From contig CM049307.1 of assembly GCA_026874595.1 (NCBI GenBank), forward strand, positions 39,412,862 to 39,476,861: a DNA stretch of 64,000 bases. Reading direction: 5' to 3'. Source of the DNA: Sipunculus nudus. Its lineage: Eukaryota > Annelida > Sipuncula > Golfingiida > Sipunculidae. Within the stretch, counting starts at the first letter, position 1, and the number at the start of each line of letters is the position of its first letter. Both the position numbers and the translations under genes were made by a program. This document shows, piece by piece, positions 20,221 through 59,225 of this stretch. Below the pieces are notes generated by a model. It was given only the letters and a program-made list of their open reading frames with translations. It did no database searches and was not told where the DNA came from.

Positions 20221-22128
20221 TGCCACAAAGTGGCCGGGGCATATAGTTTTACCCATGTCCGTCATTCCGTCCTTCCGTCATTCCAAAATCAAACAGTTGT
20301 ACGGACTATTTTTCGCAATGCCTGCAGATATTGGCCTGATTTTTGGTGTGTGGGCAGATAATGACCAGTTACAGATCGAGTTTGCGTTTCGTCCCGGTTG
20401 ACTTTTTTGACAGTTTTTACGGCTCCTTAACATAGAAAATTTCATGAAAAATAGAAATTTTCATGACAAATACACATGTATGGACTTTTTTTCGCAATGC
20501 CTGCAGATATTGGCCTGATTTTTGGTGTGTTGGCAGATAATGACCAGCAACAGATCGAGTTGGCGTTTCGTACTGGTTGACCTACTTTTGACCGTTGTAC
20601 TGCTCCTGAACATAGAAAATTTCATGAAAAATAAAAATTTTCATAACAAATGCATATGAACGGACTTTTTTTTCGCAGTGCCTGCAGATCCTGGCCTGAT
20701 TTTCGGTGTGTGGGCAGATAATGACCAGTTACAGATCGAGTTTGCATTTTGTTCCAGTTGACCTACTTTTGACCGTTTGACAGTGCTCTAACATAGAAAA
20801 TTTCATGAAAAATAAAAATTTTCATGAGAGATGTGCATGTACAGCCTTTTTAGCCCTCAGCTCATAGGCTGATGGGCTATAGTCGTCACCCATGCTGTCC
20901 GGCTGTCTGTCCGTCCGTCCGTCCGTCCGTCCGTCTGTCCATCAAGTGTCTGTCCTGTGTCCGTTAACTTTTACCTTGTGAGCGGGATATCTCTAAAAGG
21001 ATTCACCGTCGGAATTTTATATCATCAGTGGAGATGTTTATCGATAAAATCTCGGTCAAGTTCGAAGATGGGTGACCTTGACCCATTTTTCTACATTTTA
21101 GAGCTGATTATAGAAAAACACTCAGAAGCTTATATCTCAGGAACCATTGTGTTGTTTTTCACAAAACTTACTATGATAATTGGGACTGATGGTATGTACG
21201 TTCTACACAATTTTAGTGGTGCCACCTGCAATTTCTGATTTTTTTTATCAATTTTTATTGTATTTTTAAATTTTGGCCATGTGAGTGGGATATCTCTAAA
21301 AGGATTCAACGTTGGAATTCAATTTCATCAGTGAATTTGTATATCAACAAAACCTTGGTCAAGTTGGAAGATGGGTGACCTTGACCTATTTTTCTTTGTT
21401 TTAAAGCTGATTATACAAAAACACTCAGAAGCATATATCTCAGGAAGCATTGTGGATTTTCACAAAACATACTATGATCATTTGGAATTATTGTTTGTAC
21501 GTGCTGCACAATTTTGGTGGCACCACCCACAATTTCTGATTTTTTAATGAATTTCAATCGGATTTTTCAATTTTGGCCTTTTGTGAAGATATCTCCAAAG
21601 GTATTCAACACAGGAACTTCATTTCTTCTGTGCTATTGCATGATATTTACAAAATCTTGGTCAAGTTCAAAGATGGGTGATCTTGACCTACTTTTCAAGG
21701 TCACAGAGCTTAGAATAGAAAAAAAAAACTTAGGAGCTTATTTCTCAGGGCGCATTTGGTGGATTATCAGGAAATATGGTACATACCTCTCCAATTTAAG
21801 TTTATAACTGATTATCAGCTTTTGCTAATATTCTAGTTCGCAATGCAATGCTTACAGATACTGGCCTGTTGTTTGGTCTGTGGGCGCATAATGACGAGTT
21901 CGCGTTTCGTCCCAGTTGACCTATTTTTGACCATATGACAGATCCTGACAGGCCTAATTTTTTGTGTGATGCTTGTTAATGACCCGTTACAGATCGAGTT
22001 TGCATTTTGCCCTCGTTGACCGACTTTTGATTAATGACAGCTCCTGAACTTTAAAAAATTGACAAAATTTATCAAATTTTTCTAATTTGCACCAGGCGGG
22101 GGCATTCGTGTCGTTCCGACACATCTAG
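20221..22128 (+). mobile_element. Helentron-like family H1, copy 1
   Basis: Starts CCACAAAGTGGCCGGGGC followed by ATATAGTTTTACCC, and ends with GGCGGGGGCATTC, hairpin GTGTCGTTCCGACAC (22108-22122) and ATCTAG before T. The 5' motif of the family (ATGCCCCCACC, complete in the 57.1 kb copy) recurs inverted as GGCGGGGGCAT near the 3' end. Inside are three units of about 180 bp (CCTGCAG at 20321, 20500, 20681). These are followed by a second head hairpin at about 20855-20880, a (GTCC)n tract at about 20905-20940 and about three units of roughly 300 bp. No ORF for a Rep-helicase, so non-autonomous. Confidence 0.75.
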
Positions 22129-22527
22129 TTTTGAACTTGTTTTAATGAAATCATCGTTTCATTGCAAGGACTGACCGCGTGCATGTGTTCTATCGAGCTC
22201 CGTTTTGAATAACTTTCGTGACCTTATCGATTCACAAAGTCTGCCCACACATTGGGGAGCGAACAGGAATTTAAATCAAGCAACGGCATGACCTATGCTT
22301 CATTCACCCACAACCTATAAAATTTATGGAAATATTACCGAAAAGTCTTTCTTTATAGTTTAGCCCTTCTTGTAACATTAGCTCGAATAAATGTCTCAAT
22401 TCAATCAAAAATTAAAGTAAAAAATTAGGTAGAATCGAACTTATTTTGGATACATTGTAGTGATGGGTTTAACTGGTTTAATAGTAAATTCAATGATGTA
22501 CACACCCACACATACACACTTTCTCTC

Positions 22528-22530
<3 letters not shown>

Positions 22531-22567
<37 letters not shown>
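22531..22567. repeat. (CT)n microsatellite
   Basis: Pure CT dinucleotide run, preceded by interrupted CT and CA repeats from about 22502. Confidence 0.95.
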
Positions 22568-22574
<7 letters not shown>

Positions 22575-23082
22575 CATAGATCACCATACTTTATTACAAG
22601 TAATCCATAATTTGTGAGTACGAGTATTAGGGGAAAATGGTATTAAAGCTACGATACATAATGCTTTAAATATTGCAGATAACAAGTCTACATTATGAAC
22701 AATATTGTTTATATAAATAATGTTTATGTTGTGCTGGCATTCGACAACTGCGGTCAGAGAACTGGAAATCATGTAGATAAGCGAAGGGAATTCGAGCTAT
22801 GTAGAATTTATTGACTGCCGAGTACTTACTAATCGAATACACTATTGTGTCAGTAAACACATTCTGCATACTTCCCATGTTTTCATGTCTGACATGTAAT
22901 TACACGGCACCTTTACACACAACAATGTATATCACGTATCGTGTTTGGGTGTACCGGTACGTTTGTGTATGGGTCAATATTTTGTATACTATGTGTGACA
23001 TTAGAGAAAGGTAGACTGAATGGTACAATAACAAACGGTCTTATCACTATTCAGATGCTAGCTGTCCCGTCTGACTTCACAG

Positions 23083-23129
23083 CAGCGCAACAACAGCCTG
23101 TTCTGTCACCGGGTGCCTACTTGCTATAA
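23083..23129 (+). CDS. Candidate short last exon of the PDZ gene
   Basis: After the acceptor CTGACTTCACAG the frame needed by exon 3 (one base carried over) gives Ala then AQQQPVLSPGAYLL and stop TAA at 23127-23129. This would close a 162-residue protein with a PDZ domain, a linker and no LIM domain. The block is GC-richer than its surroundings, and the Gln/Pro composition continues that of exon 3. The phase match alone has a one-in-three chance. No family conservation of this tail is known to me, so it stays a candidate. Confidence 0.3.
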
Positions 23130-23143
23130 TGTTTTAATATTAT

Positions 23144-23345
23144 AGCTCACTGACAGACGTTATTTGAGCTATAATTCGTCCACCGTCCGTCTGTCATTTC
23201 GTTGTACCGTTAACAGTGCACCATTTGTAACCCTTGGACCAAAGAGCCTGTCATTAAAAGAGGTTCCAGGTAAACATCCATAAAAATTCGAAAATAGGTC
23301 ACGGTGACCTATTTTCTACGGACTGCTGGGTAAACACAAACAGAC
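23144..23345 (+). repeat. H2-family repeat fragment
   Basis: Begins AGCTCACTGACAGACGTTAT and pairs with the TTGAGCTATA that follows (a decayed head hairpin), then CGTCCACCGTCCGTCTGTC. It contains one monomer with the palindrome AGGTCACGGTGACCT at 23296-23310, the same motif as the 42-43.6 kb array. Confidence 0.65.
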
Positions 23346-23654
23346 AGACACTACTTAGTATTCAAGGTTGCTGGACTAATATTTTCATTGGATAATATGA
23401 ATCATATACCCCATTTGCATTAACGCTATTAGTACCCAAGTTTAAACGAAATTACTCAGACACGTTACTGACATTTGTGAAACCTCATCATGGTTAGTTT
23501 ATTTTTCTCCTATATATAGGAATGTATTGCTGTGTCCAGTTTAACATTTGGCTTCACCATTACCTGAACATCTCTTCTTCTCCTGCCGTACAGGCCCATC
23601 CAAAAAAAAATAAAACAAATGTGATCCTCTGGTTACAGATTTAGCCCCTTTGTT

Positions 23655-23925
23655 TTTCGCTCAGCTGGCTGTGATCGATCATGCTTTGTCCGTCGTCCGT
23701 CCCCTTCCATCGGGCAGTCTGATTGTCAGGGCACAAATCGCAGAAGCTCCTTACTTCGAGGGAGGTCCTTGACAAATTTTCTTGGACACCTGAAATTAGG
23801 TCACTGCGACGTATACTCTCTGAGCCATTCGGCCTGTTTGTGCAACCCATGATATTAAAAATTTGGTACAAATACTCCAGTACGCAAGTAACGCATGGAA
23901 TGCCATGATTCCTGCCTCGCATGTT
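23655..23925 (+). repeat. H2-family repeat fragment
   Basis: Head CGCTCAGCTGGCTGTGATC, then GTCCGTCGTCCGTCC, GGGCACAAATCG and one monomer with CCTGAAATTAGGTCACTG. Single unit, 3' end missing. Confidence 0.6.
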
Positions 23926-24924
23926 GATAATTGGCAGTTTAATTAGTTCCTGAAGACAAGTGCGTTACCTGTATTTTTTACGCATTGTTACGCATTTAAG
24001 AATTATTCCTAAAATTAAATAATGGGCACCTTTAAGTGGAATGGTTTTGAAGAGTTTTTCATTTCTTCTCCGATTTGAACAATATCATGATCATATTTGA
24101 AGTCTCTGGTTTGTCTTCCTGTCACATACATAACTTTTATATTGTTATTTAGCTATTGTGTTTGGAAACGTGACATCCTAATTGATTTTTAAACAATAAA
24201 TTTCGTTTGGTAATCTAAAACAGTACATTTCCCCAGCCTGATAATATAAGGAGTCACAATACATTTTATCTGATTTCACATTATATTAAAAGCTTAATCA
24301 GATACACTTGTAAAAGGAAGGAGTTTCGAGTTAAACCACGTATATTTATACACTAGTATATTGACGTACGTAACGCGCCAGGTTTTATGGGCTTATACGC
24401 TGAACTTACGAAGATTTCTAATTAGTTAACGAAACATTGACACAGACTAATGTTGTAATAATGAGTCCTGTCAACAACCGAGGTCCAGATAATCACACAG
24501 TTAATACATGCAGTTTACAATTGTTTCATAGTTACCCCGAAAAGTTATAACCACGCATGTTGTTATGTCACAGCAGACCTTTATTTAACATATATACAAT
24601 ATCAATAAAATCTGTCAACTATAACCTGATAAAAGATGATATATAACATCAGTACCAAACGTCCTGGTTGATATGTACTGGGATGTAAAGGTATTGTATA
24701 GCCTTTCAATATTTATGCCAAATGCATAATATAAGACTTTTCTTCTGTAATTATGAATATCCTGATGTATGAAAAATGAAATTTTTGTAGAACTTAACGA
24801 CCACAGGAAATTTCTTTTTTTTCTATGTGCACTGGGATTCCAAGGACCTGCATTTTACAGATTCTAGAGAAACAAGAAATTTCTGTGTCACTGCTGGTTG
24901 AAATATATGCCAAAGATTCCTTTT

Positions 24925-25790
24925 AACTCAGCTCATTGTAAGTCAGTTTAGATATGTCGATGACCCTTTTTCTGATATGTCTGTCCGTCCGATCTTCCTT
25001 CACCGTGTATCCGTATAAAGACTCAGGAAGTCCGGATAGTAGTAAAGTATCTCACCATGACCTACTTTTTCCGAGTTATGTATCAAAAATATCGAAAACC
25101 ATCGTCCTTGTGTAATTCCAAATTACGTACTTTTTTCTATACTCTCTGCGTTACGGGATAAAAACACAGGCTTCAGCACCTCTGAAGTTATGACTCTCAA
25201 CAGTAATACTTCATACTAAAGGCCAACTTTTTCAGTAACTACCTGATAAATTGTCTTGGTTTTTCGAGCTGTGAGAATCTGACAGCTAAGGAAAACTTCA
25301 GCCACCGCCTACAATTTATCAATTTTATGTATTTTAATAGCAGTTTTGAGAATGACTTTGCTTTAACCAGGAGGACTCAAAGCCTCTAGGTCGAGAGTTC
25401 AAGTTATATACCGAGTAGTGGTCAGAGTTTTCACGGTCATTCCCTACCAAGGGTGAGCGCTCTGTATGCTCAGTGGGAAGGCTTTGTCCCACAGCCGTGT
25501 ATCACTCACCAGTGAATGCGTCTTCGTTTGTTTTTTTTGTTTTTTTACCCAGTAGTGGGTATGATTACACACCATGGACCCGCATGTGACACCTTATCTG
25601 GGCGAAACCATGATACAAAATAATATGATAAGAACCGAGCTCTGAGATACTTGAATTAAGATAAGACGTACAGCATAAAAGTGGAGACGGTCAACTCCGC
25701 CAAAGTCATTGTAATATATATTTACGTTCTACAGTCTCTAGAAATATGGATGCAGCTGAGCGTCATGACCCATTGGCCCGTACGAAATTG
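24925..25790 (+). repeat. H2-family element, decayed, interrupted by a SINE
   Basis: A decayed head (AACTCAGCTCATTGTAAGTC) and TGTCTGTCCGTCCGATC mark the 5' part. The tail motif CAGCTGAGCGTCATGACCCA lies at about 25756-25775 but lacks the intact second hairpin arm and CTTG. The SINE at 25395 lies between them. Confidence 0.5.
25395..25660 (+). mobile_element. SINE-like element (diverged copy)
   Basis: Aligns with the body of the tRNA-headed element at 61449: TTTTCACGGTCATTCCC, then GGGTGAGCGCTCTGTATGC, GTGGGAAGGCT, CCCACAGCCGTGT, GTGAATGCGTCTTCG and GATACAAAATAA. A decayed box B (AGAGTTCAAGT) precedes it, while the tRNA box A is not recognisable. Confidence 0.6.
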
Positions 25791-27148: not shown

Positions 27149-27154
27149 TTTATT
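27149..27154 (-). promoter_or_regulatory. Candidate polyadenylation signal of the glycosyltransferase gene
   Basis: TTTATT on the plus strand gives AATAAA on the minus strand about 175 bases past the stop codon. Another candidate lies at 27073-27078. Which is used cannot be told from sequence alone. Confidence 0.4.
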
Positions 27155-27194
27155 CAAATGGATTGTACAAATACATTTCGTAATTGTTCGTGGC

Positions 27195-27315
27195 ACTCTC
27201 CACCGCTCAGGTGGTGACCTGTAGGGGTGGAGGACATCGGAGAAACCCAGTAGTCAGGCAATCCACTCCTAGCCACGCCCGGGATCGAACCAGCTCAAAT
27301 GTCCGGGCTCCCTTG
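27195..27315 (-). mobile_element. Possible tRNA-derived SINE in the 3' UTR of the glycosyltransferase
   Basis: On the minus strand it contains GGTTCGATCCCGG, a perfect RNA polymerase III box B, followed by a GTGGATTGCCTGACTACTGG block. It lies directly downstream of the stop codon. A convincing box A was not found, so SINE identity is tentative. Confidence 0.4.
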
Positions 27316-27329
27316 ACGAGTGACCATGG

Positions 27330-30156: not shown

Positions 30157-33100
30157 AGCTCAGCTGACTTTCAGTCATGCTGAGCTATAGCGATCACTCT
30201 TTGTCCGTCGTCCGTCTGTCCGTCTGTCCATCTGTCCGTTAACCTGGCACAAATCGTAACCGCTGGACTTAGAATCTTGTAACTTTACATTCTGAGAGGT
30301 CAATGAAAAATCTTCTTGGAAACCAGAAAATAGGTCTCTGTTACCCATATCCTTCGAGCTATGGGGCCCCAAAGTACCCCCCCCCCCCCAGAAAAGTAAA
30401 AAATTTCATACAAAAACTTCAATATCTCATTAACTACTTGACTGATGGTCATGATTTTTGGCATACATATTGATCATGAGATGTTCCATCAGTTCCTGAG
30501 GACTGGTGGCGCCACCTGTATTTTTCGATTTTTTACGAATTTTTTTTCTCTATTTTGATACCTTTAAAAATGTGAACATCTGTTAACAAAGCACAAATCG
30601 TAACGACTGGACCTAGAATCTTCATTCTCGACACACTGAGAGACCTATGGAAAGTCTCCATGGAAACCAGAAATTAGATCTCTGTTACCCATATTCTTTG
30701 AGCTATGGGGCCCCAAAGTACCCCCCAGAAAAGTAAAAAATTTCATACAAAAACTTCAATATCTCATTAACTACTTGACTGATGGTCTTGATTTGTGGCA
30801 TAACTATTGATCATGAGATGTGTCATCATTTCCTGCAGACTGGTGGCGCCACCTGTATTGTTGGATTTTTTATGAATTTTTTTTCTCTATTTTTGAGACC
30901 TTTAAGGATGCTGTCATCTGTTAGCGTGGCACAAATCGTAACGACTGCACCTAGAATCTTCATTCTTGACACACTGAGAGACTTATGAAAAGTCTCCGTG
31001 GAAACCAGAAATTAGGTCTCTGTTACCCATATCCATTGTGATATGGGGCCCCAAAGTACCCCCCAGAGTAGTCAAAAATTTCATACAAAAACTTCAATAT
31101 CTCAATAACTACATCACTGATGGTCATGATTTTTGGGATACATATTGATCAAGAGGTGTTTCATCAGTTCTTGCAGACTGGTGGCACAACCTGTATTTGT
31201 TCAGGGTTTTTTTTTACGATTTTTTCCTCTATTTTTGAGACCTTTAAGGATGCTGTCATCTGTTAGCGTGGCACAAATCGTAACGACTGGACCTAGAATC
31301 TTCATTCTCGATACACTGAGAGACCTATGAAAAGTGTCTATGGGAACCAGAAAATTAGGTCTCTGTTGCACATATCCTTTGAGCAATGGGGCCCCAAAGT
31401 ACCCCCCAGAGTAGTCAAAAATTTCATACAAAATCTTCAATATCTCAATAACTACAACACTGATGGTCATGATTTTCGGCATACATATTGATCATGAGCT
31501 GTTCCATCGCTTTCTGCAGACTTGGTGCGCCACCTCTATTTTTTTCAAATTTTTACGAATTTTTTTTCTCTTTTTTTGAGACCTTTAAAGATGTGGTTAT
31601 CTGTCAACAGGGTACAAATTGCAACAACTGGACCTAGAAACTTCATTCTTGTCATGCAAGGAGGCCCATGAAGAGTGCCTGTGGAAACTTGAAATTAGGT
31701 CTCTGTTACCCATATCCTTCAAGCTATAGGACTCTGAAGTATCCCTCAGAATAATGGACAATTTATGATACAAAATCTGAAGTATCTGAACAACTAATGC
31801 GGAGATCACCATGATTCTTTGCATGGATATTGACCATTAAGTGTTTTTATTAGTTTCTGCAGACTGGTGGAGCCACCTGTTTTTTTGTATCCTCCAAAAC
31901 AAAGTTTTGCAGATACTATGTTTTTGACCGGGTTCCTCCGCCGCCGCCACGTTTGTTTCCAGAGAGCTCCTCTGAGAAAAATGGACCGATTTTTCCGAAA
32001 CTTACACCAATTATCTAGTCACATGTGAACTAGTGCCTAACCAATTTGTGTTGATCTCTGACCTTTCCCCTCTATCCAGCGTCCATTTGTGCATCTGTTT
32101 CCACACATAAACCCTCATATCTCGGGAACCGATTGACCAATCAGGAAATAAAATTTATACAAATGTAGCCCTTGGATTGCTTTATAACATACACAAAAAT
32201 GGTGGCGCCACCTATAACCATGTTTGCACAGTGTCCATCTGTTCATCTGCCTTGGGTTAAAATCACTTATATCTCTGCAGTGAATTGACTAATTCACCTG
32301 AAATTCGGCATGCATATACATCCAGGATAGCTTTCTTGATTTTATGACAGATGGCACCACCTACATTCACGTTCAAGCTGATCACATCCAAGCTCATATC
32401 TCAGGAACAGTTTGACCGATTGGGCCAAAATTTTGCATGTGTATAGATATCACATAGCTTTTTATCATACGCAAAACTGGTGGCGCCACCTGCAACCATT
32501 TTTGCACAGCGTCTGTCTGTTTTCTGCCGTGGGATAATGTCACTCATATCTCGGCAGTGGTTTGACATATCTGCCTAGAATTTTGCAGTTTTATACATCC
32601 TGGATAGCTTTCTTGATTTTATGACAGGTGGCGCCACCTACATTCTAGTTTACACTGCAGACATCCGAGCTCATATCTCGGGAACCGTTTGAACGATTGG
32701 GCCAAAATTTTTCATGTGTATAGATCTCACATAGGTCAACTGGAGGGGCCACCTGTAACCATTTTTGCACAGCGTCTGTCTGTTTGTCTGCCGTTGGCTA
32801 AAATCACTCATACACATGTAGTGGTTTGACTTTTCTGCCTAAAATTTTGCATATGTATACAACTTGGACATCTTTCTGGATTTGCGGTAGGTGGCACAAC
32901 CTACATACACATTTAGGCTGCAGACATCCATGCTAATATACAACATACCTCACTCTATTTCCCCTTGCCACTCAATCCATGCCTCACTTCAACCGTTCCA
33001 CTCTGATTTTGGCGGATACACGTGATCACTTGTCGGCTACCCGTATTCTAGTTTTTAAAGTTTACACATTTTTTCTCTATTTTTGAGATATATAAATAAA

Positions 33101-33233
33101 GACTAAATCTTGGCCTGTTGGTTAATCTGTTTGATGCTTCAGTTGAATGGGTAATACTACCATTCTGATGATAAAATTTCCTTTAGCGAATCTCTTCCCT
33201 GTCAGCTGAGCGACATGACCCATGGGTCACTTG
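30157..33233 (+). mobile_element. Helentron-like family H2, full-length copy
   Basis: Head AGCTCAGCTGACTTTCAGTC followed by ATGCTGAGCT is a hairpin. Then come TATAGCGATCACTC and GTCCGTCGTCCGTC. The tail CAGCTGAGC at about 33203 is the inverse of the head, followed by the perfect 14-base palindrome TGACCCATGGGTCA (33216-33229) and CTTG before T. The core has five units of about 340 bp (GGCACAAATCG-type starts near 30245, 30590, 30929, 31269, 31610). A second, different tandem block of about 300 bp per unit follows at 31.95-32.95 kb. Perfect GGTGGCGCCACC palindromes occur at 30505, 30842, 32201, 32481 and 32627. No coding capacity. Confidence 0.8.
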
Positions 33234-34038: not shown

Positions 34039-34089
<51 letters not shown>

Positions 34090-34094
<5 letters not shown>

Positions 34095-37655: not shown

Positions 37656-37696
<41 letters not shown>

Positions 37697-41400: not shown

Positions 41401-42004
41401 TAATTGATGATATCAGTACCTTATTTGACTCTGTATCTGATGTGTCGATGCACTGGTGAATCCTTACAGCTCTATGGATAACTGAGACTTCAGTCAAATG
41501 ATATGGCCCTGAAAATAGAGCATTATCTTCAATCTGACTAGCATTTATATAAATTGTGTGAAGCAACACAACTTGCCAGATGTATTAATATATTAAAAAA
41601 ACTCCCAAGTTTTTGAAGCAACCAGAGAGAAAGATCATCTTTTTTGAGATGATTTTCTTATATGTTTGGATTTTGGCTAGCTGTCACATGCTGTTATCTA
41701 TATATATATATACCATTACCTCAATAATCTTGGTTTTCTTAGCATTTTCTGAGCAAATTAGATCATACATTACCGGCTTCAATATCATCAAAAAGATATC
41801 TTATCCAGTGGGGATAAGTACCTATAATAATATTAATAGTATTTTAAGCTCAGCTGACTGAAAGTCATCTCAGCTTTAGTGATCACCCTTTGTCCGGCGT
41901 CCGGCCGTCAGTTAACAGGGCACAAAATGTAACTGTTTGACCTAGAAACTTCTAATTGAACATCCAGGGATGTCCGGGGCAAATCTCCTTGGAAACCCCA
42001 AATT

Positions 42005-43563
42005 AGGTCATGGTGACCTATATTTTGTGACTTACGGGCCGAAAACATGATTTTGAGCACCCAAACAGTCAGACAGGGCACAAATTGTATCCATTAGGCC
42101 TAGAATCCTCTAACCTGACATTAAAAAAGATCCTAGGCAAATATCCATGGAAACCTGAAACTAGGTCACTGTGACCTATATTCTCCGATCTATAGGGAAA
42201 AGATGTCATATGAGCCTCCTGAATGTCACATGGGCACAAATCTTAATTATTTGACCTAGATTCTTCTTACTGTCTATCCAGAGAGGTCCTTGGCAAATCT
42301 CCTTGGAAACCTGAAATTAGGTCATGGTGACCTATATTTTGTGACCTACAGGCCATAAACATGATTTTGAGCAACCAGACAGTCAGATAGGGCACAATTT
42401 GTATCCATTAGGCCTAGAAACCTCATAAATTGCATTAAGGTAGATCTGAGGCAATTGTTCTTGGAAACCTGAAATTAGGTCACCATGACCTATATTCTGT
42501 GACCTATAGGAAAAGATGTTGTATAAACACCCTAAATGTCAGATGGCCACAAATCCCATCTGTTAGGCCTAGAATCTTCTCACACAATATCTTGGGAGGT
42601 TCTAGGAAAATCTCCTTGGAAACCTAAAATTAGGTCATGGTGACCTATAATTTGTGACCTACAGGTCAAAAGCATGATTTAAGGTACCCTGAATGTCAGA
42701 TGGGCACAAATTTTTTCTGTTAGGCCTAGAATCTTTTAACGCAACATCCTGGGAGGTCCTAGGCAAATCTCCTTGGAAACTTGAAATAAGGTCATGGTTA
42801 CCTACATTTTGTGACCTACAGGCCGAAAACAGGATAATGAGCATCCAGAAAGTCAGGCAGGGCACACATTGTATTTGTTAGGCCTAGAATCTTCATATGT
42901 AACTTTCTCAAATATTCATGGCAAAGGTCCATGGTATACTGAAATTAGGTCCCTATGACCTATTTTTTGTGACCTATAGGAAAAGAAGTCATATTAGCAC
43001 CTAGACAGTAAAACAGGGTACAAATTGTATTTATTAGGCCTAGAATGTTCTAATGTAACATTGAGGGAGGTCCTAGTCAGATGTCCTAGGAAACCTGAAA
43101 TTAGGTCATGGTGACCCATATTCTGTTGGGCTGAAAAATGATTTTGAGCACCAAGACAGAAAAGGCAAAAAATGTATCCATTAGTCCTAGAATCACAATA
43201 TCCTGGGAGATTCTAGGCAAATCTCCTTTGAAACCTGAATTTAGGTCATGGGTTACCTATATTTTGTGACCTTCAGGCAGAAAACAGGATTTTGAGCACC
43301 CAGAAAGTCAGATAGGCCTAATGTTGTATATGTTTGGCCTAGAATCTACTAATGTGACATTCTGAGTTGTCCTTGGCAAATGTCCTTGGAAAACTGAAAT
43401 TAGGTCACCATGACCTATATTTTGCGACCTTTAGGAAAAAATGTCATACCCAGACAGACTGGGCACAAATTGTATTCAATAGGTAATAGAATCTTCTTAC
43501 GCAACATCCTAGGAGGTTCTAGGCAAACCTCCTTGAAAACCTGAAATTAGGTCATGGTGACCT
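42005..43563 (+). repeat. 157-bp-period array with estrogen-response-element palindromes
   Basis: Eleven evenly spaced sites of form AGGTCAnnnTGACCT start at 42005, 42163, 42319, 42477, 42632, 42789, 42947, 43103, 43243, 43402 and 43549. Seven are perfect (42005, 42163, 42319, 42477, 42632, 43402, 43549). Spacing is 154 to 159 bp for most. Each monomer also has GGGCACAAATTGTAT, TTAGGCCTAGAATC and CTTGGAAACCTGAAA blocks. The monomer length recalls the core repeats of bivalve pearl elements and the satellite BIV160, by memory. Confidence 0.85.
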
Positions 43564-43732
43564 ATATTCTGCAAGCTACTGACCAGAAACATGATTTTTA
43601 GCAGTCGGACAGGACACAAATTGTATCCACTAGAGCTAGACTCTTCTAACATGACATTGAGGAAGTCCTTGGCAATTCTCCTTTAGACACCTGAAATTGG
43701 ATCATGGTGAGCTTTATATTCTGCTAGCTAAG

Positions 43733-45530
43733 CCAGACTTTTTTAATTCTTTGGTTTACGAACATGTTTGACTAAAGTGATAGGTAGGAGGTAGGGAAAA
43801 AAAAAAAAATGGAACAAACCTGGATACTGGTGTTTGTGAATCCTGTATTGTACAGTTGGGTTATAAAATTCATTTTTTAAATGGCACTATATTAACCTAT
43901 ATAAAATATATAAAATAATATATAAAAATTAAAAAATTATCATCCTCTTGAGTTTTCCACATGAATCATGCGTGTGCCTTGTTATTTCAAGCCATTAAAA
44001 TGTCATTGAAGGTAAAATAATGACAAATAAAAGTTTAAACAGTAACACTTATAAATGATTTCATACGCACCTGAAATAAAACTTCAGTCACTGCCCATTG
44101 TCAATTAAGTGAACTGTCTTTTTTATAGTTTTACAAATTAAAGATCAGTCAAATACTTTAAAAAAATACAAAATAATATATTTTTGTCATATATACAAGG
44201 AGAAAACTAAATATTCACTGCTAGCATGATAGACTGCAGTTTTTATTTTTCCGTCGTGAATGACAGTAACAATGACAATATGCAACTTGCAGTTATTTGC
44301 CTATTGTTTATCAAAAATTCAAATGTCAACAACATGGAACTCGAAGTTGTTTGATTCATGACCATGACCTTTTCTTTTTTGTGTTGCGCATGTTTGATAG
44401 TCCTTTGAATATACAACAACTGCTAATAAAGTGAGGTTACCTTTGGAGATCACATTGAATAATTCAACTATTTTAAAAGTTTAAAAAGTATTAATAATCT
44501 TTATTTATTAATAAAGATCTGCATTTCTTACCACGGCCGTGAAAGTACGTACCGTACTCAGTTTAATATGCCGTCAGGCGTCACTTGGCCACTGTCAGTC
44601 CGGTATTGCTTTTCGGCATCCATACTCATCAAAGCTTCCATCACATCCGTTTGGAACAATTAAATGAATCCTTTCAAAGTTTCTGCATTTTAAATGGCTT
44701 TCATTTTAGCTTGCTTTTGTTTTGACTGTAAAAATACCCACAAAACCTACGCTTCACATAAACCCGCGCCACTAAGACTACAGATAGTCGGAAATCCTGC
44801 AGAAACCCTGAGAATTCCTGGAGTCTTAAAAGAAAACATGACGACCTGGCCTGATGCAGTATATAATTTCATCTGTTCAGTAATTTTCTTTTAAGCGTCA
44901 CAAGACTACGTTTTTTAGTTTTGACAGGTTAAAACTTTTTAAGAGTAAATTTGTGAAACTTAGCCAATTTGCAGTAATAAATAGTGTCTGACTTTGAGTG
45001 CAATAATCAGTATTAAGAAGTAAATTTGTTTGTATATCTAGCAAGTTATTAACAGTGGAAAGCTGGTAAAGCCGCTATGCAACCAAACTAATTTTCTTTT
45101 CTAATTCACATCTATCTAAAACAAATATGCTTAACGAGGTAAATATGACAGAAACGCTGGTTTAAAAATGTACTGTAGTGCAGAAAACTCTCCAAGAATT
45201 CTCAATTTCCCTGCTGAACCTTTTGACTACTTGATGGCCAATCAATTGCATTTATGGCCCAAGGATACCCTATTGTGATTGGCTTAAACCCTCCCTCTCT
45301 CATTACGAAAGTGACCTTAGCCAATTAATTAGCCAATCATAAGAGTTCTAACGTTTGAGGTGATCTAATACACACGGTCACTGAACATTTCATTTGTCAA
45401 CAACCGTGTTGGATTCGGCGACGCAATATAAAAGGAAAAAAAAGTCAAAATGCCAATTTTATTTTTTTTCTGAAATGAGGATGTCGGAGGTCGGCGGGTT
45501 TATAAACCGAAAAATTGAAAAAATTCTGGC
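43733..45530 (+). mobile_element. Inverted-repeat element interrupting the 157-bp array
   Basis: The array monomer is broken after CTGCTAGCTAA (43.73 kb) and resumes with GGACCAGAAACATGATG (45.54 kb). The insert ends are imperfectly inverse: GCCAGACTTTTTTAATTC with TTTGGTTTACGAAC on the left, and, read inverted, GCCAGAATTTTTTCAATT with TTTCGGTTTATAAAC on the right. A short CTA may be the target duplication. About 1.8 kb, no transposase recognised. Confidence 0.5.
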
Positions 45531-48387
45531 CCTATGGACCAGAAACATGATGTTGAGCACCCAGACAGACAGGGTACAAATTGTATCCATTTTCCTTGGA
45601 ACCCTGTATTGTGAAATCCATGGTATTACTGGGCAGCTCTTCTATGAATCCTGAATTTTTTATTAGCTCAGCTGACTATAAGTCATCTGAGCTATAGTCG
45701 TGGTCCATTGTCCGTCGTCCGTCCGTCTGTCCGTCCGTCCGTCCGTCGTGCCGTCCGTAGATGTGGCACGTTTTGAAACCGTAAGACCTAGGAATCCAAA
45801 ATTCGGCATAATGTTAGATGTCCCCAAGATCTCCTACCAAGCCGAAAACTGGGTCTTTTCGACTTCGTTCCTTTGAAAAATTAAGGAAAAACCTCAATTT
45901 TTTATTAAAAACCTATTTTCACACTTCAGGACTGCCTAATATTAAAACCACTCATCTGTTTTTCCTCATATTTACCATAGATATTCCTCTATATAGTTCC
46001 TATGTACATTCAAGAAATTGTCTGTATTATATAATTTAAAAAAGTTATGGACCCAAACATAATGCATTTTGTAAAAAATCAGGAAAGATATTTGATCACT
46101 TAACACAAAACATGTTAAAGCTATGGACCTTTTTTCCAGTAATATAACTTTAATTAATCAAAATTAAATTTTATACCCAAAATTAGATGAAAATCTTTTA
46201 AATTTTTTAAAATATTAATAAAAATAAAAAATTGGTACCTTAAATTTTGCCCAACTTTGACCATGGCACGTTTTTTCCTGTAAGTACTGTGGATTTAATT
46301 TTCACAGCATGATTTTGCTATCTTTACAACTGTTAACACCAAAAATTAGAAACCAGTTGATCAAAAACTGTAGATTTTATTCAGGTTTTCAAGCACCATG
46401 TAACATATTTTTTACATCAAGCTAGTGTTATGCAGTTTGCAAGAGCTCAGCTCCCCAGCTTCAGCTCTTAGTTCCTTAAATTCGGCATACAGCTAGATGT
46501 CTCCAAAATCCCCAACCATGCCAAGAATTTGGTCACTAGGACTTAATACCTTCAAGATATTATTGAAAAACTTCATTTTTCCATTAAAAACCCATTGTTA
46601 CACTTCAAGACTGCCTAATATCAAAACCACTGATCTGACTTTAATCATAAATAATATACATATTTTTCATTCTCTATGCACATGCCAGAATGATATCAGT
46701 ATTGCATATTTGTTTTAAATTAGGGCCCAAACATAATGCACTTTGTAAAAAATCAAGAAATATATTTACTCCCTTAAAAAGGAGATTTCTGAAGCTAGAG
46801 ATTTTTTGTCAGGGATGTAACATTATTTAATCAAGATTCAATTGAATACCCAAAATTAGTTATGAATTTTTCAAATTTTATAAGTTATTAGTATAAATGT
46901 AAAATTAGTACCTTAAATTTTGCCCAACTTTGACCATGGCACGTTTGTTTCCTGTGAGCACTGTTGATATAATTTTCATATCATGCACACATAAGGATTT
47001 CAGCTTAAAATTTTAGAAAGCTGAAAGAAATTGGCCAAAAATTGTAGCTTTTATTAATGTTTTTATGAGACCCTGTCAGACTTTGGCTCTCTCAAGCCCC
47101 TCTTGAGTCACCTGTATGTTGACCTTGTTGAACTTTCAGCAAATTATGCATGCTTGAGGCGAGGCATACACGGGGGGAATCCAGGCAGCTTATGGCCAGC
47201 CACAGTTGATCCAGGTGTCCAACCCAACTCATCTAGTAGTTTTAACCAACTACATAACAATAAACAATAAATTAATAAATTTTTATTGGTTTTGTAATAA
47301 TAAATTAAAGAAAAATAGAAAAGGAATTTGTTAGTTTATAATAACAGGAAATTAACTTGCAGTTACTGATGATATAAGAATCTTGTATCGATGGATAGAA
47401 TGTCACGTATTCCAAATAACACCATGCAGTCACCTATGGTATTTTTCAGTTCAATTTTAATGATAAAGAAGTAAATCATATTATTCATTACTAATCATTA
47501 GGGATCATATGATGGAAATTAATGATAGACAAAGATGCAGTTGATAATATTAATCTAGATTCCTACTGTGTCTAGTGTGTACATTGATGTGAAAATAGTC
47601 CAAAATGAATTTATTACAGTTATTTTTTAATATAAATAAAAGCCATAAAACCAGGTACTTATGATCATTATTTAAATGTGTGAATTTTGTATATTCTGGA
47701 TTCTCAACATCATTGTTTGGTGAAAACTGAATAAATACCAGACATGGTGCGAATACTTTGTAATTGTATTTAAATACGAATATGATTATGTAATCCATTA
47801 TAAATTTCTTGCATAAAGAATGGGAATTCAGGTAAAAATGAAAGTATATGAATACCAGTGCAAATACTTTCAAAATGTATTCATGAATGCATTCATGAAT
47901 ATATTCTTTAATATTATTTTAATAATCATTTCAGTTATATTTCATTTTAAAAAATCATGATTCTCTTATTATTTTAATAAAAATTATATTAGGGACAATA
48001 TTTGTAATTTTTTTTAATTAATAGTTAAACCCTTATATTATATATTCTGCTTATAATTTATATGGCCAAGTCAAAATCTGTGTGACAATAGTACTCCATT
48101 TGTTAATAAAATAAATGAAATCAATCCTCTTCCCTGTCTCCAAAGGTACTATCAAAGTCATACATAAGCTAAACAACAACAACTCATAATACAGCTTATA
48201 TTTATTACCACACAAAACCAGCATGTGCCTCATTTCTAAATAATATTTTTAATCATATATAACAGCTGAGCGTCGTGACCCATAGGTCCCTTGTTTTCTG
48301 TCCATTATTCAACACAGTTTCATTAGCCATAGGCTATTCTCACAGACAATATATAACAATAATAAAAGAAATGAGCACCCAGTCAAA

Positions 48388-48420
48388 TTTAGCTGAGCAT
48401 CATGGCCCATGGGCCACTTG
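48388..48420 (+). repeat. Second H2 3' tail with compensated hairpin
   Basis: AGCTGAGCATCA followed by the perfect palindrome TGGCCCATGGGCCA (48403-48416) and CTTG before TT. Relative to TGACCCATGGGTCA at 33216, both arms changed together (A to G, T to C), so pairing is kept. Confidence 0.75.
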
Positions 48421-48851: not shown

Positions 48852-51557
48852 TTAGCGAACCTGTGAGCTTATGCGATGGTGTGGCGTCGTGCGGCGTCCG
48901 GCATCTGTACGTTAACCCATACTATCTTGAAAACGGCAAGAATTAGCATCACAAAATTTTATGCATAAAATTAGTCATCTAAAAAACAGATTTTGCTTAT
49001 TTTATGGCTAACTGCATTTTCTTAGATTTTATAGGGAAAAAGCTAAAAAAGCTTCTCCTCTGAATCTGTTCAGCCAAATTGTCCAATATTTTACAGAAAT
49101 GATTCCTGGAACAATGTCTCTCAAATTTGTTTGAATGGTTTAAGTTTGGTGATTTTTGGCCGAGTTACAGGAAGTTGAACTTAGTCATCTGTCCAAAAAA
49201 GCATACTAAAATTACAATCTCAGAAATGGCTTGAGCTATCATCACCAAATTTTATGCCAATGTTGGTCACATGAGTCATATCTGAAATTGAGGTATTGGT
49301 GGCGCCACCTGCATGGGCCTTTTTTGTACGGGGGTCATCAGTGCCCGTATCATACTGACAGCTACAAATAACTTCTTCTCTGAAACGAAACGGTCAAATT
49401 GTTTAATATCGACAGAAATGATCCTAGGGTACTGCTTTCTGAAGTTTGTTCAAATGGTCTCAGTTCAGTGACTTTTGGCTAAGTTATGGGAAGCTGAATT
49501 TAGTCAGATGCCATAACAGCCCATTTTAGCTAAGTGGCTACAAAAATCTTCTCAGAAACCACTGGGCTAAATTCTTAAATCTCACACATTAATTATCCTT
49601 AGATGTTGATAATTCAAGTTTGTTCAAATTGTCTCAGTTCAGTGACTTTTGGCTGAGTTATGGGAAGCTGAATTTAGTCATATGCCATAACAGCCCAAGT
49701 AAGCTAAGTGGCTACAAAAATCTTCTTCTCAAAAACCACTGGGCCAAATTCTTAAATCTCACACATCAATTATCCTTAGATGTTGATAATTCAAGTTTGT
49801 TCAAATTGTCTCAGTTCAGTGACTTTTGGCTGAGTTATGGGAAGCTGAATTTAGTCATATGCCATAACAGCCCATGTTAGCTAAGTGGCTACAAAAATCT
49901 TCTTCTCAAAAACCACTGGGCCAAATTCTTAAATCTCACACATTAATTATCCTTAGAAGTTGATAATTCAAGTTTGTTCAAATGGTTTTGGTTCAATGAT
50001 TTTTGGCTGAGTTATGGGAAGCTGAACTTTGCCATTTTGCTGTATTTTCCCATAAGAGTTATAAACCTACAAAACGTTTTTCAACTGATGATACTGAGGC
50101 CAGTTTGTTTAATATTTTGCAAGAATAATTCCCTGAATCATTCTAATAATAATTGTCTTTTATGGTTCCAAAAAATGAATTTTGGCTGAATTATAAAGAT
50201 TGAATTGAGTCATTTTACCATATATGTTAGCTGTGTGAAGCAGATACATCTAGCCTAGCACCAGTATATCAGCATCCATTACATCATGCCTCTAGACATT
50301 TAGATTTCAGAATATCTATGGAAAATATTGACAAGAATGTTTTTAAAAGCTTTTAAAAAATGTAGATTTATGATATTACATATCACCTGTACACTAACTC
50401 ATAATTTCTCAGGAATAGCAGGAGCTACCATCCCCAAATTTTATGCAATTATCAGTCACATATCAAATGTTGATGGATTCAGCTTATTTTTGCTGTCAGC
50501 ATTTACTTAGATTTAACAGGGAAAAAGCTGAAAAAAAACTTTAAAAGTCTTCTTCTTGTAAACAGTCCAGCCAAATTGTTCAATATTTTACAGAAACGAT
50601 CCCAGAGGCGAGCCTTCTCAAGTTTGTTCAAATGGTTTGTGTTGGATAAATTTTAGCAGAGTTACATAACAGGCCAAGATTGTGTATGTTTCTTGAATAG
50701 GTTGAGAAACTGCCAACTGTTTCAGATTTGGCAACAGATCAAGAGTTCATTCAGTGCAGTCAAATATAGGTCAGCAGTTCAATCAGTGCAGCCAAGCACA
50801 AGGCATGTGATCACCTCATGGGCAGCATGTGATCACCTCATGGGTGTCATGCCCCTCAGGGCTGCATATGGAGCCAATCTGTGAGCTTATGCAATTGTGT
50901 GGCTACTATTTCAGATTTGGCAATAGGCAAAAGGTCAGCCTGGATTTATTTATAGCTTTGGCAGACTGCCAACTATGTCAGATTATGCAACAGGTCAAGA
51001 GTTCACTCATTGCAGCCAGGTACCGGTCAAAAGTTCACTCAGTCTAGCCAGGTGCAGGTCAAGAGTACACTCAGTGCAGTAGCCTGAGCCAGTAATTTGT
51101 CACAGTACACTCGGGGCAACAGCCTTTCTCACCTAAGCCTGGTCAGCCCCGTGCATCAGACTCAAGGTAAGTTTGATGTATTGGCCTGATATTCTGACCT
51201 GTCTATGTGTCTTTAATGGCTTTCTCGTTCACAGGACAGGTGTCGCCATCTACAATGACTTTTGCAAAGTGTATGTGCCTGCTTAATTCTATGGAGGAAT
51301 TTGATATATCAGCCTGAAATTATTATACATGTCAAATAGCTTTGTCGTATACAAGGCTGGTGGTGTCACCTACATAATTTTTGTGTTGTGTGCACCCATG
51401 CCAGAATTTCAGCAGTGATGTTTGTGTATTGTTTCTTGTTCAAAATGTTTAGTACTTGCATTGTTCATATATATATGAAAAGTAGTGGATAAGCATTGAA
51501 GCGTTATACCTGGTGTATATCAATATGCACAGGTTCGCATTAGGCCTGTAGGCCTTG
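48852..51557 (+). mobile_element. Helentron-like family H3, full-length copy
   Basis: 5' end TTAGCGAACCTGTGAGCTTA. Near the 3' end lies CACAGGTTCGCA (51528-51539), its inverse, followed by the hairpin AGGCCT-GT-AGGCCT (51542-51555) and TG before TTT. The core contains modules around CACCAAATTTTATGC, a perfect GGTGGCGCCACC at 49298-49309 and a 177-bp tandem array. A truncated copy lies at 13622. Non-coding. Confidence 0.75.
49440..50030 (+). repeat. 177-bp tandem repeat inside H3
   Basis: Units marked by TTTGTTCAAATxGTCTCAG (cytosine of TTCAAAT at 49451, 49625, 49802 and 49979). The middle two are nearly identical, each with GACTTTTGGCTGAGTTATGG and CAAAAACCACTGGGCCAAAT. Long open frames here follow from the repetition. 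Confidence 0.85.
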
Positions 51558-54500: not shown

Positions 54501-55576
54501 AAACCTGCGGTAAAACTTTGTTTGTTTGTAACTGTCATCATCTGTCATCTTATTACCAAGTCAGAGGAAATGATCGTTGATTGATTTAATAATTGGTCAG
54601 TTGTTCTAAGGAGATATAGTCTACTGCAACAGTAAGCAGGTATTTGAAACAGATTCTTAAGCTAGCAATGGAACAGGTTTAATATTGAATTATGATTCCA
54701 GACTAGTCCCTGGCCCAGACAGTTCAATATTGTTTTTACTCTCGTCTAGACCATTAGCTCTGACAGCATATCTCAGACACAGGTAATCAAAATGATGGCA
54801 CTGCATGCCACATATGAACCAGAAAACAGCATCTCTGGCAGCTAATGTACCAGTAAGACTCTGACATTTAGTGTTGTGATTTAACTGGTTTTGCATACAA
54901 CATAATACAAACAAATAACAGCCATTTATGTGCTTCAGTGTTCACTGATTGTCATAAAATTTCTTATAGAGAATGCCCAGCCAATGCAGGATGCTAGATA
55001 AAGGATAAATAGTAGACCCCCCTTCAAGTATAGGGGTCAATTTCAATCTGGGTTCCCATATTAAACCTGTAAGTAAAGTATCTAGATAACATCCAGATAG
55101 GATCATGTTAATGAATATATACCCTTTCATGATCTTAGCATTGTAACTTTCACTTTGCCTCATTATAGCCCTGATATATTATACCTAAGTTAACTTTGCT
55201 ACAATACAGTGTGTTTTGCTCTGTCGTCAGGTTATGTGGTACCTCATTCTGATTGATGTTGTTCAGCCCTGTTGATGTGTTATGATGCTAGTTTTACTAT
55301 GTTTGGTCTGCAGAAGAACTGCAGGCAAAATGAACACATTTGATACAAATAAAGTATGCTATCATATAGATATGGTGTAACAGTTAGGGGGATATTTAAA
55401 TTTAGTTTGACACATACATTCCATACTGGTATTTTCCGGAACATTAGTAAATGATAGAAGCAAGGAAAAGTATTTATCTTGAGGTGAAGATTCTTCTTTA
55501 TAATAATGTGTATTGTGTGCATGAGTTTCTCATGCAGGATTTCTTGTGTAAAATTAAGATAATTTTTGTTCCTCAG

Positions 55577-55963
55577 CACCATCCAGGCAGACAGCCCAGT
55601 ATGCCAAACTGCCACAGGAAGACGTAGATGACGACGAGAGTGACCACGTTCTGTTCAAACAAGATGGCCACATCATAGGCAGCATCCAAAATGGGTCAAC
55701 GAAAAAGTTACCTGAGGGGGAGACCTGTAACGGGGCCGCATCACCTCCCCCAGAGATGCCAGAGCTTGTCAAAGTCCGGGTACTCAAGTACAGCAAGCTC
55801 TCTCGTACCCGAATTGCCTGCTACACCCTATCTGTGATATTCTGCCTCCTTTTGGCGTCGATGTTCGCCTTTGTGTTTCCATATCTCAACTCCTTTAAAT
55901 CAGTTCTGCTGGGAAAAACATATGACACAACAGCAGACTGGGAGAAAACATTCCCTCACTCAG
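55577..55963 (+). CDS. FAM234: FAM234-family protein, exon 2 (cytoplasmic tail and membrane span)
   Basis: Acceptor TTGTTCCTCAG and donor ACTCAG|GTGAAA. 387 nt, phase 1 in and 1 out. Encodes residues 9-137 of the joined model: an acidic tail (QEDVDDDESDHVLFKQDG at about 22-39), a Pro-rich linker, the basic VKVRVLKYSKLSRTR segment, then one membrane span at about 88-109 (IACYTLSVIFCLLLASMFAF with VF following). This order, acidic cytoplasmic tail then single span then propeller, is that of FAM234A/FAM234B (ITFG3/KIAA1467), by memory. The biochemical role of FAM234 proteins is not well defined. Confidence 0.85.
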
Positions 55964-56279
55964 GTGAAAAGCATTTATCATCCAGCAGGAAAAGGAATAT
56001 AAATTCATTGATGTTCTAATCCACATGAAAGAAAGTGTTTGCTTTATCAGAGTAATTATTGTGTAAACTTTAGACTCTTTAATAGAGTCTGTGTCTGTGT
56101 TAATGAGCTCATGTGCATGCATGATAAAGTTATAAGAATGTTGGTTAAATCTTGAAAAAAAGTTGGATGTAGTCATCATATCATAGCATTTTATCTCTAA
56201 TTAGGACTGACATATTGGTTATAATATTACTTTATATTAATATGAAATGCCTGATGTTTAATTTTTGTGTATTTCCCAG
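55964..56279 (+). other. FAM234 intron 2
   Basis: 316 bases, GTGAAA to TTTCCCAG. Unique AT-rich DNA. Nothing further seen. Confidence 0.85.
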
Positions 56280-56375
56280 TTTCAGCATCTCCTGTCAGGC
56301 TAGTTGATGTGGATGCAGATGGGAGGCTGGATGTGCTCCTTAGTACATCCAGTGCCAGGGACTGTCAAAAAGCAG
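56280..56375 (+). CDS. FAM234: FAM234-family protein, exon 3 (first Ca-loop blade)
   Basis: Acceptor ATTTCCCAG, donor AAGCAG|GTCAGT. 96 nt, phase 1 in and 1 out. Encodes residues 138-168 with VRLVDVDADGRLDVLLS. The DxDxDG loop is the calcium-binding type seen in FG-GAP/integrin-alpha-like propeller blades and in FAM234 proteins. It lies just outside the membrane span. Confidence 0.88.
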
Positions 56376-57143
56376 GTCAGTGCAGCATGTTGATATATAC
56401 ATTCAACCTGAAGGGTACATCCTTCCTTCAAAATTCTAAAAAGTTATTAAACTTGATTGTAGATGTAATTCAAGTACTTGAAATGTCAGTAAATTTCAGA
56501 ACATGTTATAGGAAGGCAAAATACTGCCATTAAAGTTGGATGTCTAAAAAGTTTTCTTATGTGTTGAATATTTATGTTATATCCATCTATAAAAGTTACC
56601 CATGGAATATCATTGTGTAATGGATCTAATCTGCAGAATAATAATAATTTTGCATTTGCCTTTTGCATAGTCTGCTAGGAAATCTTTATTATATACAATA
56701 TAAATGATCTTGAATTTATACACAATAAATAGCTTCAACATTGCTGAATGTTCCTTCAACTTTGACAAAAGACTTTGGGATGGTACATGGGAAAAACAAA
56801 ATTGAAAAAAAAAATGATTCAGACTTTTAATAACTGATTACAGTTTAATTGAAGGGTTGCAACTCAGTGCATCAATTGTTCCATGCTACACCCCTAAATT
56901 GATATGATCAACTCCTGGTGCTTCATTTACAAGTCATCCACTCCTTGTTTATTGACTCATTCTGCTCTCTTAACCCTGCAACCTTTAAGCAGACTTGTTC
57001 ACATTTCCTTACAGACTGATGATATTGGCTCCTGTGGGTGAGGCCTGGGAAGGTCCTGGGAACTTCTAATAAATGTTTTATTACATGCCAAGTCTTTGTT
57101 ACTTTGTTTAGTTGCAGCCTGACTTGCTTTTCTTACAGTTTTT

Positions 57144-58846
57144 TATGCCCCCACCACAAAGTGGCCGGGGCATATAGTTTTACCCATGTCCGTCCTTCTG
57201 TCCTCCGTCCTTCTGTCATTCTGAAATCAAACAGTTGTACGGACTTTTTTTGCAATGCCTGTAGATATTGGCCTGGTTTTTTGGTGTGTGGGCAGATATT
57301 GACCAGTTACAGATCGAGTTCATGTTTCGTCCCGGTTGACCTACTTTTGACCATTTTACGGCTCCTAAACTTAGAAAATTTCATGAAAAATAGAAATTTT
57401 CATGACAAATACACATGTACGGACTTATTTCGCAATGCCTGCAGATATTGGCCTGATTTTTAGTGTGTGGGCAGATAATGTCCAGTTACAGATTGAGTTC
57501 GTGTTTCGTCCCGATTGACATACTTTTGACTGTTTTACGGCTCCTTAACTTAGAAAAATTCATGAAAAATAGAAATTTTCATGACAAATACACATGTACA
57601 GACTTTTTTTCGCAATTCCTGCAGATATTGGCCTGATTTTTGGTGTGTTGGCAGATAATGACCAGTTACAGATTGAGTTTGCATTTCGTCCCGGTTGACC
57701 TAATTTTGACCGTTTTACGGCTCCTAAACTTAGAAAAATTCATGAAAAATAGAAATTTTCATGACAAATACACATGTACAGCCGTTTTTAGCCCTTAGCT
57801 CATAGGCTGATGGGCTATTGTCGTCACCCAAGCTGTCCGTCCGTCCATCTGTCTGTCCGGTGTCTGTTCGTCCGTCCGTTCCGCGTCTGTTAACTTTTAC
57901 CTTGTGAGCGGGATATCTCTAAAAGGATTCACCGTTGGAATTTTATTTCATCAGTGAAGATGTATATCGATAAAATCTCGGTCAAGTTGGAAGATGGGTG
58001 ACCTTGAACCATTTTTCTACATTTTAGAGCTGATTATAGAAAAACACTCAGAAGTTTATACCTCAGGAACCATTGTGTGGATTTTCACAAAACTTACTAT
58101 GATCATTGGGACTGATGGTCTGTATGTGCTGCACAATTTTGGTGGCGCCATCCGCAATTTCTGATTTTTTAATGAAATTTTATCTGATTTTTTCAATTTT
58201 GGCCTTTTGTGCAGGATATCTCCAAAGGTATTCAACACAGGAACTTCATTTCTTCAGTGCTATTGCATTATTTTTACAAAATCTTTGTCAAGTTCAAAGA
58301 TGGGTGATCTTGACATACTTTTCAAGGTCACAGAGCTTAGTATAGAAAAAAACTTAGGAGCTTATTTCTCAGGCAGCATTTGGTGGATTGTTATGAAACA
58401 TGGTATATACCTCTCCAATTTAAATTTATAAATGATTATCAACTTTTGCTAATATTCCAGTTTCGCAATTCAATGCTTACAGATACTGGCCTAATGTTTG
58501 GTCTGTGGGCGCATAATGACCACTTACAGATCGAGTTTGCGTTTCGTCCCAGTTAACCTATTTTTCACCATATGACAGATCCTGAACATAGAAAATTTCA
58601 TGAAAGACATAAATTTTCATGAAAAATGCACATATATGGACTTTTTTTCACAATGCCTGCAGATACTGGCCTGATTTTTGGTGTGTTGCTTGATAATGAC
58701 CCTTTACAGATCGAGTTTGCATTTTGCCCTTGTTGACCTACTTTTGACCATACAACACCTCCTGAACTTAAAAAATTTTACAAAATTTAACAAATGTTTC
58801 TAATTTGCCCCAGGCGGGGGCATGCGTGTCGTTCCGACACATCTAG
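57144..58846 (+). mobile_element. Helentron-like family H1, copy 2 (best ends)
   Basis: Starts TATGCCCCCACCACAAAGTG then GCCGGGGCATA, a near-perfect hairpin. Ends CAGGCGGGGGCATGC, hairpin GTGTCGTTCCGACAC (58826-58840), ATCTAG before T. Three units of exactly about 180 bp (CCTGTAG/CCTGCAG at 57258, 57438, 57618). Then comes the second head TAGCCCTTAGCTCATAGGCT with GATGGGCTA, (GTCC)n, and two units of about 305 bp. The order matches copy 1 at 20221, including the junctions. Confidence 0.8.
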
Positions 58847-59225
58847 TCTCGTTTTGCAGTGCAGTGCATACAGATAATGGCCTAATGTTTGGTCTGAGGG
58901 CGTATAATGACCACTTACAGATCAAGTTTGCATTTCATCCCAGTTGACCTATTTTTGACCAAATGACAGATCCTGAACATAGAAAGTTTCATGAAAGACA
59001 GAAATTTTTATGAAAAATGTATGGACTTTTTTTCAAAATGCCTGCAGATACTGGCCTGATTTTTGGTGTGTTGCTTGATAATGACCCGTTACAGATCGAG
59101 TTTGCATTTTGCCCTTGTTGACCTACCTTTGACCATACGACACCTTCTGAACTTTACAAAAAATTTTACAAAATGTTTATAATTTGCCCCAGGCGGGGGC
59201 ATTCGTGTCATTCTGACACATCTAG
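58847..59225 (+). mobile_element. Helentron-like family H1, 3' fragment
   Basis: Lacks the head and resumes directly after the CTAG of copy 2 with about one and a half 180-bp units. Then come GGCGGGGGCATTC, hairpin GTGTCATTCTGACAC (59205-59219) and CTAG before T. The hairpin differs from copy 2 by a compensated pair. Confidence 0.7.

Follow-up and report, generated by a model that had tools for sequence, protein, structure and literature searches.

How do three repeat families that differ in sequence come to share one design of ends, and what moves them? The question is raised by a 64,000-nucleotide stretch of the genome of the sipunculan worm Sipunculus nudus (C2:39412862-39476861; hereafter the window), in which an earlier note, made from these letters alone, had described three such repeats, H1, H2 and H3, as Helentron-like. 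Searching the genome (1.43 Gb, 153 contigs), we find that they are very probably three HINE families, that is, non-autonomous Helentrons, moved by Helentron Rep/helicase proteins with matching ends; the case for placing them among the HINEs and Helentrons is strong in H1 and H2 and good in H3. The description is borne out by the copies found in the genome, by the insertion of H1 at runs of T (T-runs) without duplication, by agreement with the published HINE layout and by a Rep/helicase element that carries the ends of H2.

All three elements start after a T with a 5' subterminal inverted repeat (subTIR); the complement of this repeat recurs close to the 3' end, followed by a hairpin and by CT(A/T)G, then T. 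H1 opens after T with ATGCCCCCACC at 57145, and its 3' side holds GGCGGGGGCAT, the hairpin GTGTC..GACAC and CTAG before T; its right end is duplicated in tandem, which gives two such CTAG ends, 58846 and 59225. H2 opens with AGCTCAGCTGAC at 30157 and runs through GTCAGCTGAGC and the hairpin TGACCCATGGGTCA to a CTTG before T that closes at 33233, and H3 opens after T with AGCGAACCTGTG at 48854, with CACAGGTTCGC, the hairpin GGCCTGTAGGCC and CTTG before T closing at 51557. A palindrome lies between the 3' subTIR and the 3' end in each of the three, and both an inverted repeat (IR) complementary to the 5' subTIR and a GTCC microsatellite in the left module are present in H1 and H2.

We scanned the window for this grammar, defined as an exact 11-bp repeat that follows TT and whose complement precedes a hairpin and CT(A/T)G then T, and compared the outcome with 40 dinucleotide shuffles of the window. 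The scan returned H2 and H3 (2 matches; shuffle mean 0.025, largest 1), and when relaxed to 9 bp it lost its discrimination (5 observed against a mean of 0.95, largest 4). The window copy of H1 fails the exact scan through one mismatch in its subTIR pair; across the genome, however, 18 of the 19 copies with a 5' end found have ATGCCCCCGCC, an exact partner over 11 bp, as their 5' subTIR. The common end design is therefore real, on the exact scan for H2 and H3 and on the genome copies for H1.

All three families are high-copy, with first-look candidates in the thousands (4138 for H1, 4863 for H2 and 5652 for H3, which are indications rather than copy counts), 40 of which were scored per family. 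Twenty H1 copies were fetched, with a 5' end found in 19 and a 3' end recognisable in 16; T precedes the former in 18 of 19 and comes next after the latter in 16 of 16, and these sharp boundaries coincide with the motifs described from the window. A T-run stands before the element, with unlike flanks, at all six H3 5' junctions fetched. The five outer 5' junctions fetched for H2-type elements all have TTTTT before the element, with differing flanks in four, and at one such locus (L088) the outer 5' flank is again H2 repeat.

Insertion is recorded by paralogous sites that lack H1. Queries of joined flanks against the fetched DNA found uninterrupted paralogous sites for two of 13 H1 copies (L009 and L022), one paralogous empty site falling in the window itself (46058-46355, 95% over 300 bp), and, scattered substitutions aside, the filled and empty junctions are the same but for one or two T. 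A third case is a 1708-bp H1 inside a Rep gene (L059 and L056), the site of which is empty in the 98% identical L058, with eight T in the joined flanks and six in the empty site; at least one H1 insertion is thus younger than the divergence of two gene copies that are now 98% identical. The H1 end in L056 had been considered as a sign of H1's own Rep partner and was rejected, as it belongs to this insertion and the L058 site is uninterrupted. H1 inserts at a T-run without target duplication beyond one or two extra T, in line with the insertion between two Ts that had been expected from the window.

This mode of insertion bears on two other classes of element. That H1, H2 and H3 are cut-and-paste miniature inverted-repeat transposable elements (MITEs) would fit their inverted terminal motifs and many short copies, and the pearl element was originally named a MITE, according to the part of PMC7492417 consulted; we give this explanation almost no credence, however, because the H1 empty sites lack a duplication save one or two T, the hairpin sits at the 3' end and a Rep/helicase frame lies between H2 ends. 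For H1, a MITE with a target-site duplication of fixed length is rejected by the empty sites. Canonical Helitrons begin with TC, end in CTRR and insert between A and T. They too are rejected, since the ends here are AT.. or AG.. at the 5' side and CTAG or CTTG at the 3' side, and the target is a T-run.

The enzyme side was approached with the Rep profile PF14214, which gave 143 matches from 150 scored of 195 candidates; 30 loci were fetched. One element with H2-type ends stood out (C17:35625479-35639637, minus strand, 14,159 bp; hereafter the C17 element). Its 5' side has AGCTCAGCTGAC, the IR, GTCC and repeats and is 77% identical to the window H2 over 580 bp, its 3' side runs from GTCAGCTGAGC to CCCATGGGTCACTTG before T, and its subTIRs match those of H2 over 12 bp (5') and 11 bp (3'), with the same palindrome. 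Between these ends lies an open frame of 2342 codons, with the first ATG at 45, whose protein exceeds the Pfam cut-offs for Herpes_teg_N, DUF6570, Helitron_like_N and PIF1; the Herpes_teg_N match, a tegument-like deubiquitinase domain, scores 44.4 bits at frame residues 63-210 (L062). Position-only searches place both H2-type ends as a pair, 14.2-15.2 kb apart, at six loci (C17, C1, C5, C8, C10 and C9). The 3' query is complete at all six (97-100%) and the 5' query at five, with C9 covering 1-1114 of 2138; the 3' flanks are all unlike, with T first in each, and a PF14214 match is listed between the ends at every locus except C8. At C10 (L076, C10:71595494-71595603) a further H2-type 3' end follows the copy at a distance of about 12 bases.

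Could the Rep gene on C17 be part of a separate element that inserted into an H2-type HINE, to which the H2-type ends would then belong? H2-like repeats do lie on both sides of the coding part, nesting is common among these elements, and an H2 repeat also stands upstream of the inner 5' end in five other copies. Yet the sequence between the end of the frame and the 3' terminus forms one unbroken stretch, with 97-100% identity at six loci and 89% at another, six loci have unlike 3' flanks, a sister Rep lineage (L085) likewise closes with an H2-type motif, and a grammar scan of the C17 element including its first 10 kb gave no other convincing pair of ends. We therefore regard such nesting as improbable; the variant left to it is a single old nesting event that was copied afterwards.

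The upstream repeat reflects a further property of these elements, namely that their 5' ends are stacked. At each of the other five paired loci this H2-type repeat also fills the 80 bp immediately upstream of the inner 5' end, which is therefore an internal one there. The C17 element has a second 5' end 724 bp upstream (C17:35639637 and 35640361), which extends it to 14,883 bp and has a flank unlike the other four, and two 5' heads about 0.7 kb apart occur at at least five further loci. A tentative possibility, which we hold to be less probable than not, is that H2-type elements, whether coding or not, are routinely multi-headed and that replication stopping at any of the heads builds and reshuffles satellite cores stepwise, giving nested and composite families such as H1 with H5.

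If the ends of the C17 element are its own, how close a partner is it to the window H2? Over the last 60 bp, 45 of 63 columns agree; in the part of PMC4067079 consulted, an identical subTIR of at least 11 bp defines one family and at least 80% identity over the last 60 bp one subfamily, and by this rule H2 and the C17 element are of the same family but not the same subfamily. The C17 element is therefore a partner of the window H2 at family level, though perhaps not the closest one.

Several observations weigh against assigning all three families to Helentrons with matching enzymes. The agreement of H2 with the C17 element over the last 60 bp is below the 80% line. The Exo_endo_phos match in the C17 protein scores 20.5 bits, below the Pfam cut-off of 24.5, and among the six paired loci the long Rep frame of 2342 codons is seen at C17 only: in four others the Rep match lies in open frames of 571-1124 amino acids, and C8 has no listed match. 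For H3, reading by eye found no clear 5' IR, repeat calling in the window found no (GTCC)n tract, and the 3' ends are sampled in the window only. T-run insertion without duplication is documented by empty sites for H1, against 5' junctions after T-runs for H3 and flanking T for H2. Finally, no Rep element with H1 ends (ATGCCCCCGCC/GGCGGGGGCAT) or H3 ends (GCGAACCTGTG/CACAGGTTCGC) was found in the few loci read to their ends, so that the search for an autonomous Rep-helicase element with the same ends succeeded for H2 and, in the loci read, for neither H1 nor H3.

This last negative, which depends on few loci, has to be set against the variety of Rep genes in the genome. By DNA identity the Rep loci fall into several groups, and all five aligned Rep proteins have the EFQxRGSPHxH motif; protein identity to C17 is 33-34% for Rep group A and 70% for L058. 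Surroundings beyond the 1.5-kb flanks were read only for L067, L068, L085 and the stretches of groups A and B2, those of group B2 without reaching element ends. A sister lineage, matching positions 1-309 of the query or similar at about 80%, has, in the single copy read (L085), a 3' end from CAGCTGAGC to GGCCCATGGGCCACTAG before T, which resembles the window end at 48420. The group A element (C7:31573200-31587559; L060, L031 and L061) is very long and has OTU and DUF6570 domains. Its homology continues for nearly 5 kb past the frame in three other loci, partly as a separate tandem family, and extends to the last position of the 4901-position query in two of them and to 4833 in the third, so that the 3' end lies beyond the stretch; a grammar scan of L060, L031 and L061 gave no convincing pair of ends. 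In the slices L067 (C7) and L068 (C13), neither an H1 nor an H3 end was seen on the strand of the gene.

The suggestion in the earlier note that one replication machinery mobilises at least three families is consequently unsupported, because the H2 subTIR is tied to particular Rep lineages of which several coexist, though it is not refuted, because at most Rep loci the reading stopped short of the ends. A single Rep machinery that recognises the shared layout rather than the exact subTIR would account for the common layout and target of H1, H2 and H3 and for the fact that no dedicated H1 or H3 Rep turned up. We think it unlikely, however, given that the H2 subTIR agrees letter for letter with that of particular Rep elements while those of H1 and H3 differ, and given the coexisting lineages, as divergent from C17 as group A and L058.

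With separate HINE families served by matching enzymes as the preferred reading, transposition might proceed as follows. The Helentron Rep/helicase would recognise the 3' subTIR, hairpin and CTWG, copy one strand from the 3' end to the 5' subTIR and insert the copied strand between Ts of a T-run, leaving the target unduplicated. The enzyme for H2 would probably come from the C17 Helentron family, because that family has the same 5' and 3' subTIR and palindrome, or from the sister Rep lineage, and H1 and H3 would probably rely on further Rep lineages whose ends match theirs. Tandem cores, like the (GTCC)n tract in H1 and H2, belong to the known HINE layout. By the same reasoning these families may be mobilised in trans by rolling-circle chemistry and may be active at present.

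The three families had also been called unrelated. Their subTIRs are indeed different, but the word is too strong for their cores, which the H2 profile matches and a recurring box show to be partly related. A profile of the H2 monomer matches the monomers of the element starting at 41847 (best 3.7e-18); its matches to H4 (2.1e-4) and H5 (0.013) are weak, and the H1 and H3 cores give none at 0.1. The box is a 12-bp palindrome, GGTGGCGCCACC, which with one mismatch allowed has 13 sites in the window against 0.02 in shuffles; nine lie within H2, H3, H4 or H5. A full-text literature search for GGTGGCGCCACC found nothing related. The T-run directly after the box is the place of insertion of L017, L080, L089, L090 and H4.

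Elements of this kind also lie inside one another (Table 1). Both H4, within H2, and H5, within H1, occupy a T-run in a monomer of their host. H5 was found inside H1 in 16 of the 23 H1 copies examined, after a varying number of H1 monomers, and spreads as part of H1; reading it by eye, we saw no 3' subTIR. For the inner of two further H2-type elements (45665-48293), a query of the joined flanks aligned convincingly with no empty site, so that its nesting in the outer one is inferred from the order of the ends. A decayed H2-like element lies at 23659-25780, with CGCTCAGCTGGCTG..GTCCGTC at one end and CAGCTGAGCGTCATGACCCATTGG at the other, paired by position only, and a diverged 20-bp minisatellite of about 29 copies lies shortly downstream of H1 (59509-60080).

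Table 1. Coordinates of the HINE copies, nested elements and box sites in the window.
Feature	Position	Strand	Description
H1, HINE copy	57145..59225	+	3' end at 58846, again at 59225 after tandem right-end copy
H1, second copy	20222..22128	+	5' end truncated; nested H5 at ~20857-21838
H2, HINE copy	30157..33233	+	subTIR, IR, (GTCC)n, 338-bp tandem core, 3' subTIR, palindrome
H3, HINE copy	48854..51557	+	subTIR, 177-bp tandem core, 3' subTIR, palindrome
H4, nested in H2 tandem core	31887..33051	+	GTATCCTCCAAAAC to CTAG before T, in T-run of monomer
H5, nested in H1	57790..58460	+	5' end AGCCCTTAGCTC, IR, GTCC tract; ends ..ATATTC(C/T)AG before T
Further H2-type-ended element	41847..48420	+	outer pair; end pairing inferred from order
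Further H2-type-ended element	45665..48293	+	within 41847..48420
GGTGGCGCCACC box, sites include	30505, 30842, 31866, 32201, 32479, 32627, 49298, 21516, 58141		

HINEs disperse satellite-like repeats through bivalve genomes, and for oysters two papers name no autonomous partner: PMC7492417, which sets out the Cg_HINE layout, states that no autonomous Helentron could be related to the HINEs, and the oyster genome paper PMC7992393 reports that no autonomous element was detected. With a Rep-helicase element that has the ends of a HINE, one can test which enzyme moves a given family and, for the C17 element, whether the deubiquitinase-like domain plays a part.

Measured against these sources as far as they were consulted, the window elements share with Cg_HINE (PMC7492417) an 11-12 bp 5' subTIR, a complementary IR and a GTCC-like microsatellite (both in H1 and H2), tandem repeats, a 3' subTIR, a 3' palindrome and a TT target, without duplication in H1. 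They differ in that a Rep/helicase element here has the ends of one family and that H3 has no microsatellite call, and they are set beside Cg_HINEs by layout, not by sequence. The same holds for the pearl elements of bivalves (via PMC7492417), which, by description, likewise have short arrays of central repeats, with a unit of about 160 bp, between Helentron-like ends. With Helentrons and DINE-1/HINE elements (PMC4067079), whose target is described as T-rich and unmodified with a variable number of T and whose Rep has the form EFQxRGSPHxH, they agree in ends, target, Rep motif and variable-T empty sites. Rep, helicase and endonuclease (here a weak match) likewise occur in one protein; what sets the S. 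nudus elements apart is that DUF6570 and a tegument-like deubiquitinase domain are present as well in the C17 protein, and that the 5' ends are stacked. Tegument-like deubiquitinase domains are reported in Helentrons, with molluscs among the hosts (PMC9741609), and the Herpes_teg_N domain of the C17 protein conforms to this; we treat in addition the ends and non-coding partners, which the consulted part of that work does not. The shared layout is thus a known hallmark, to which S. nudus adds a Rep element with H2 ends, nested insertions and stacked 5' ends.

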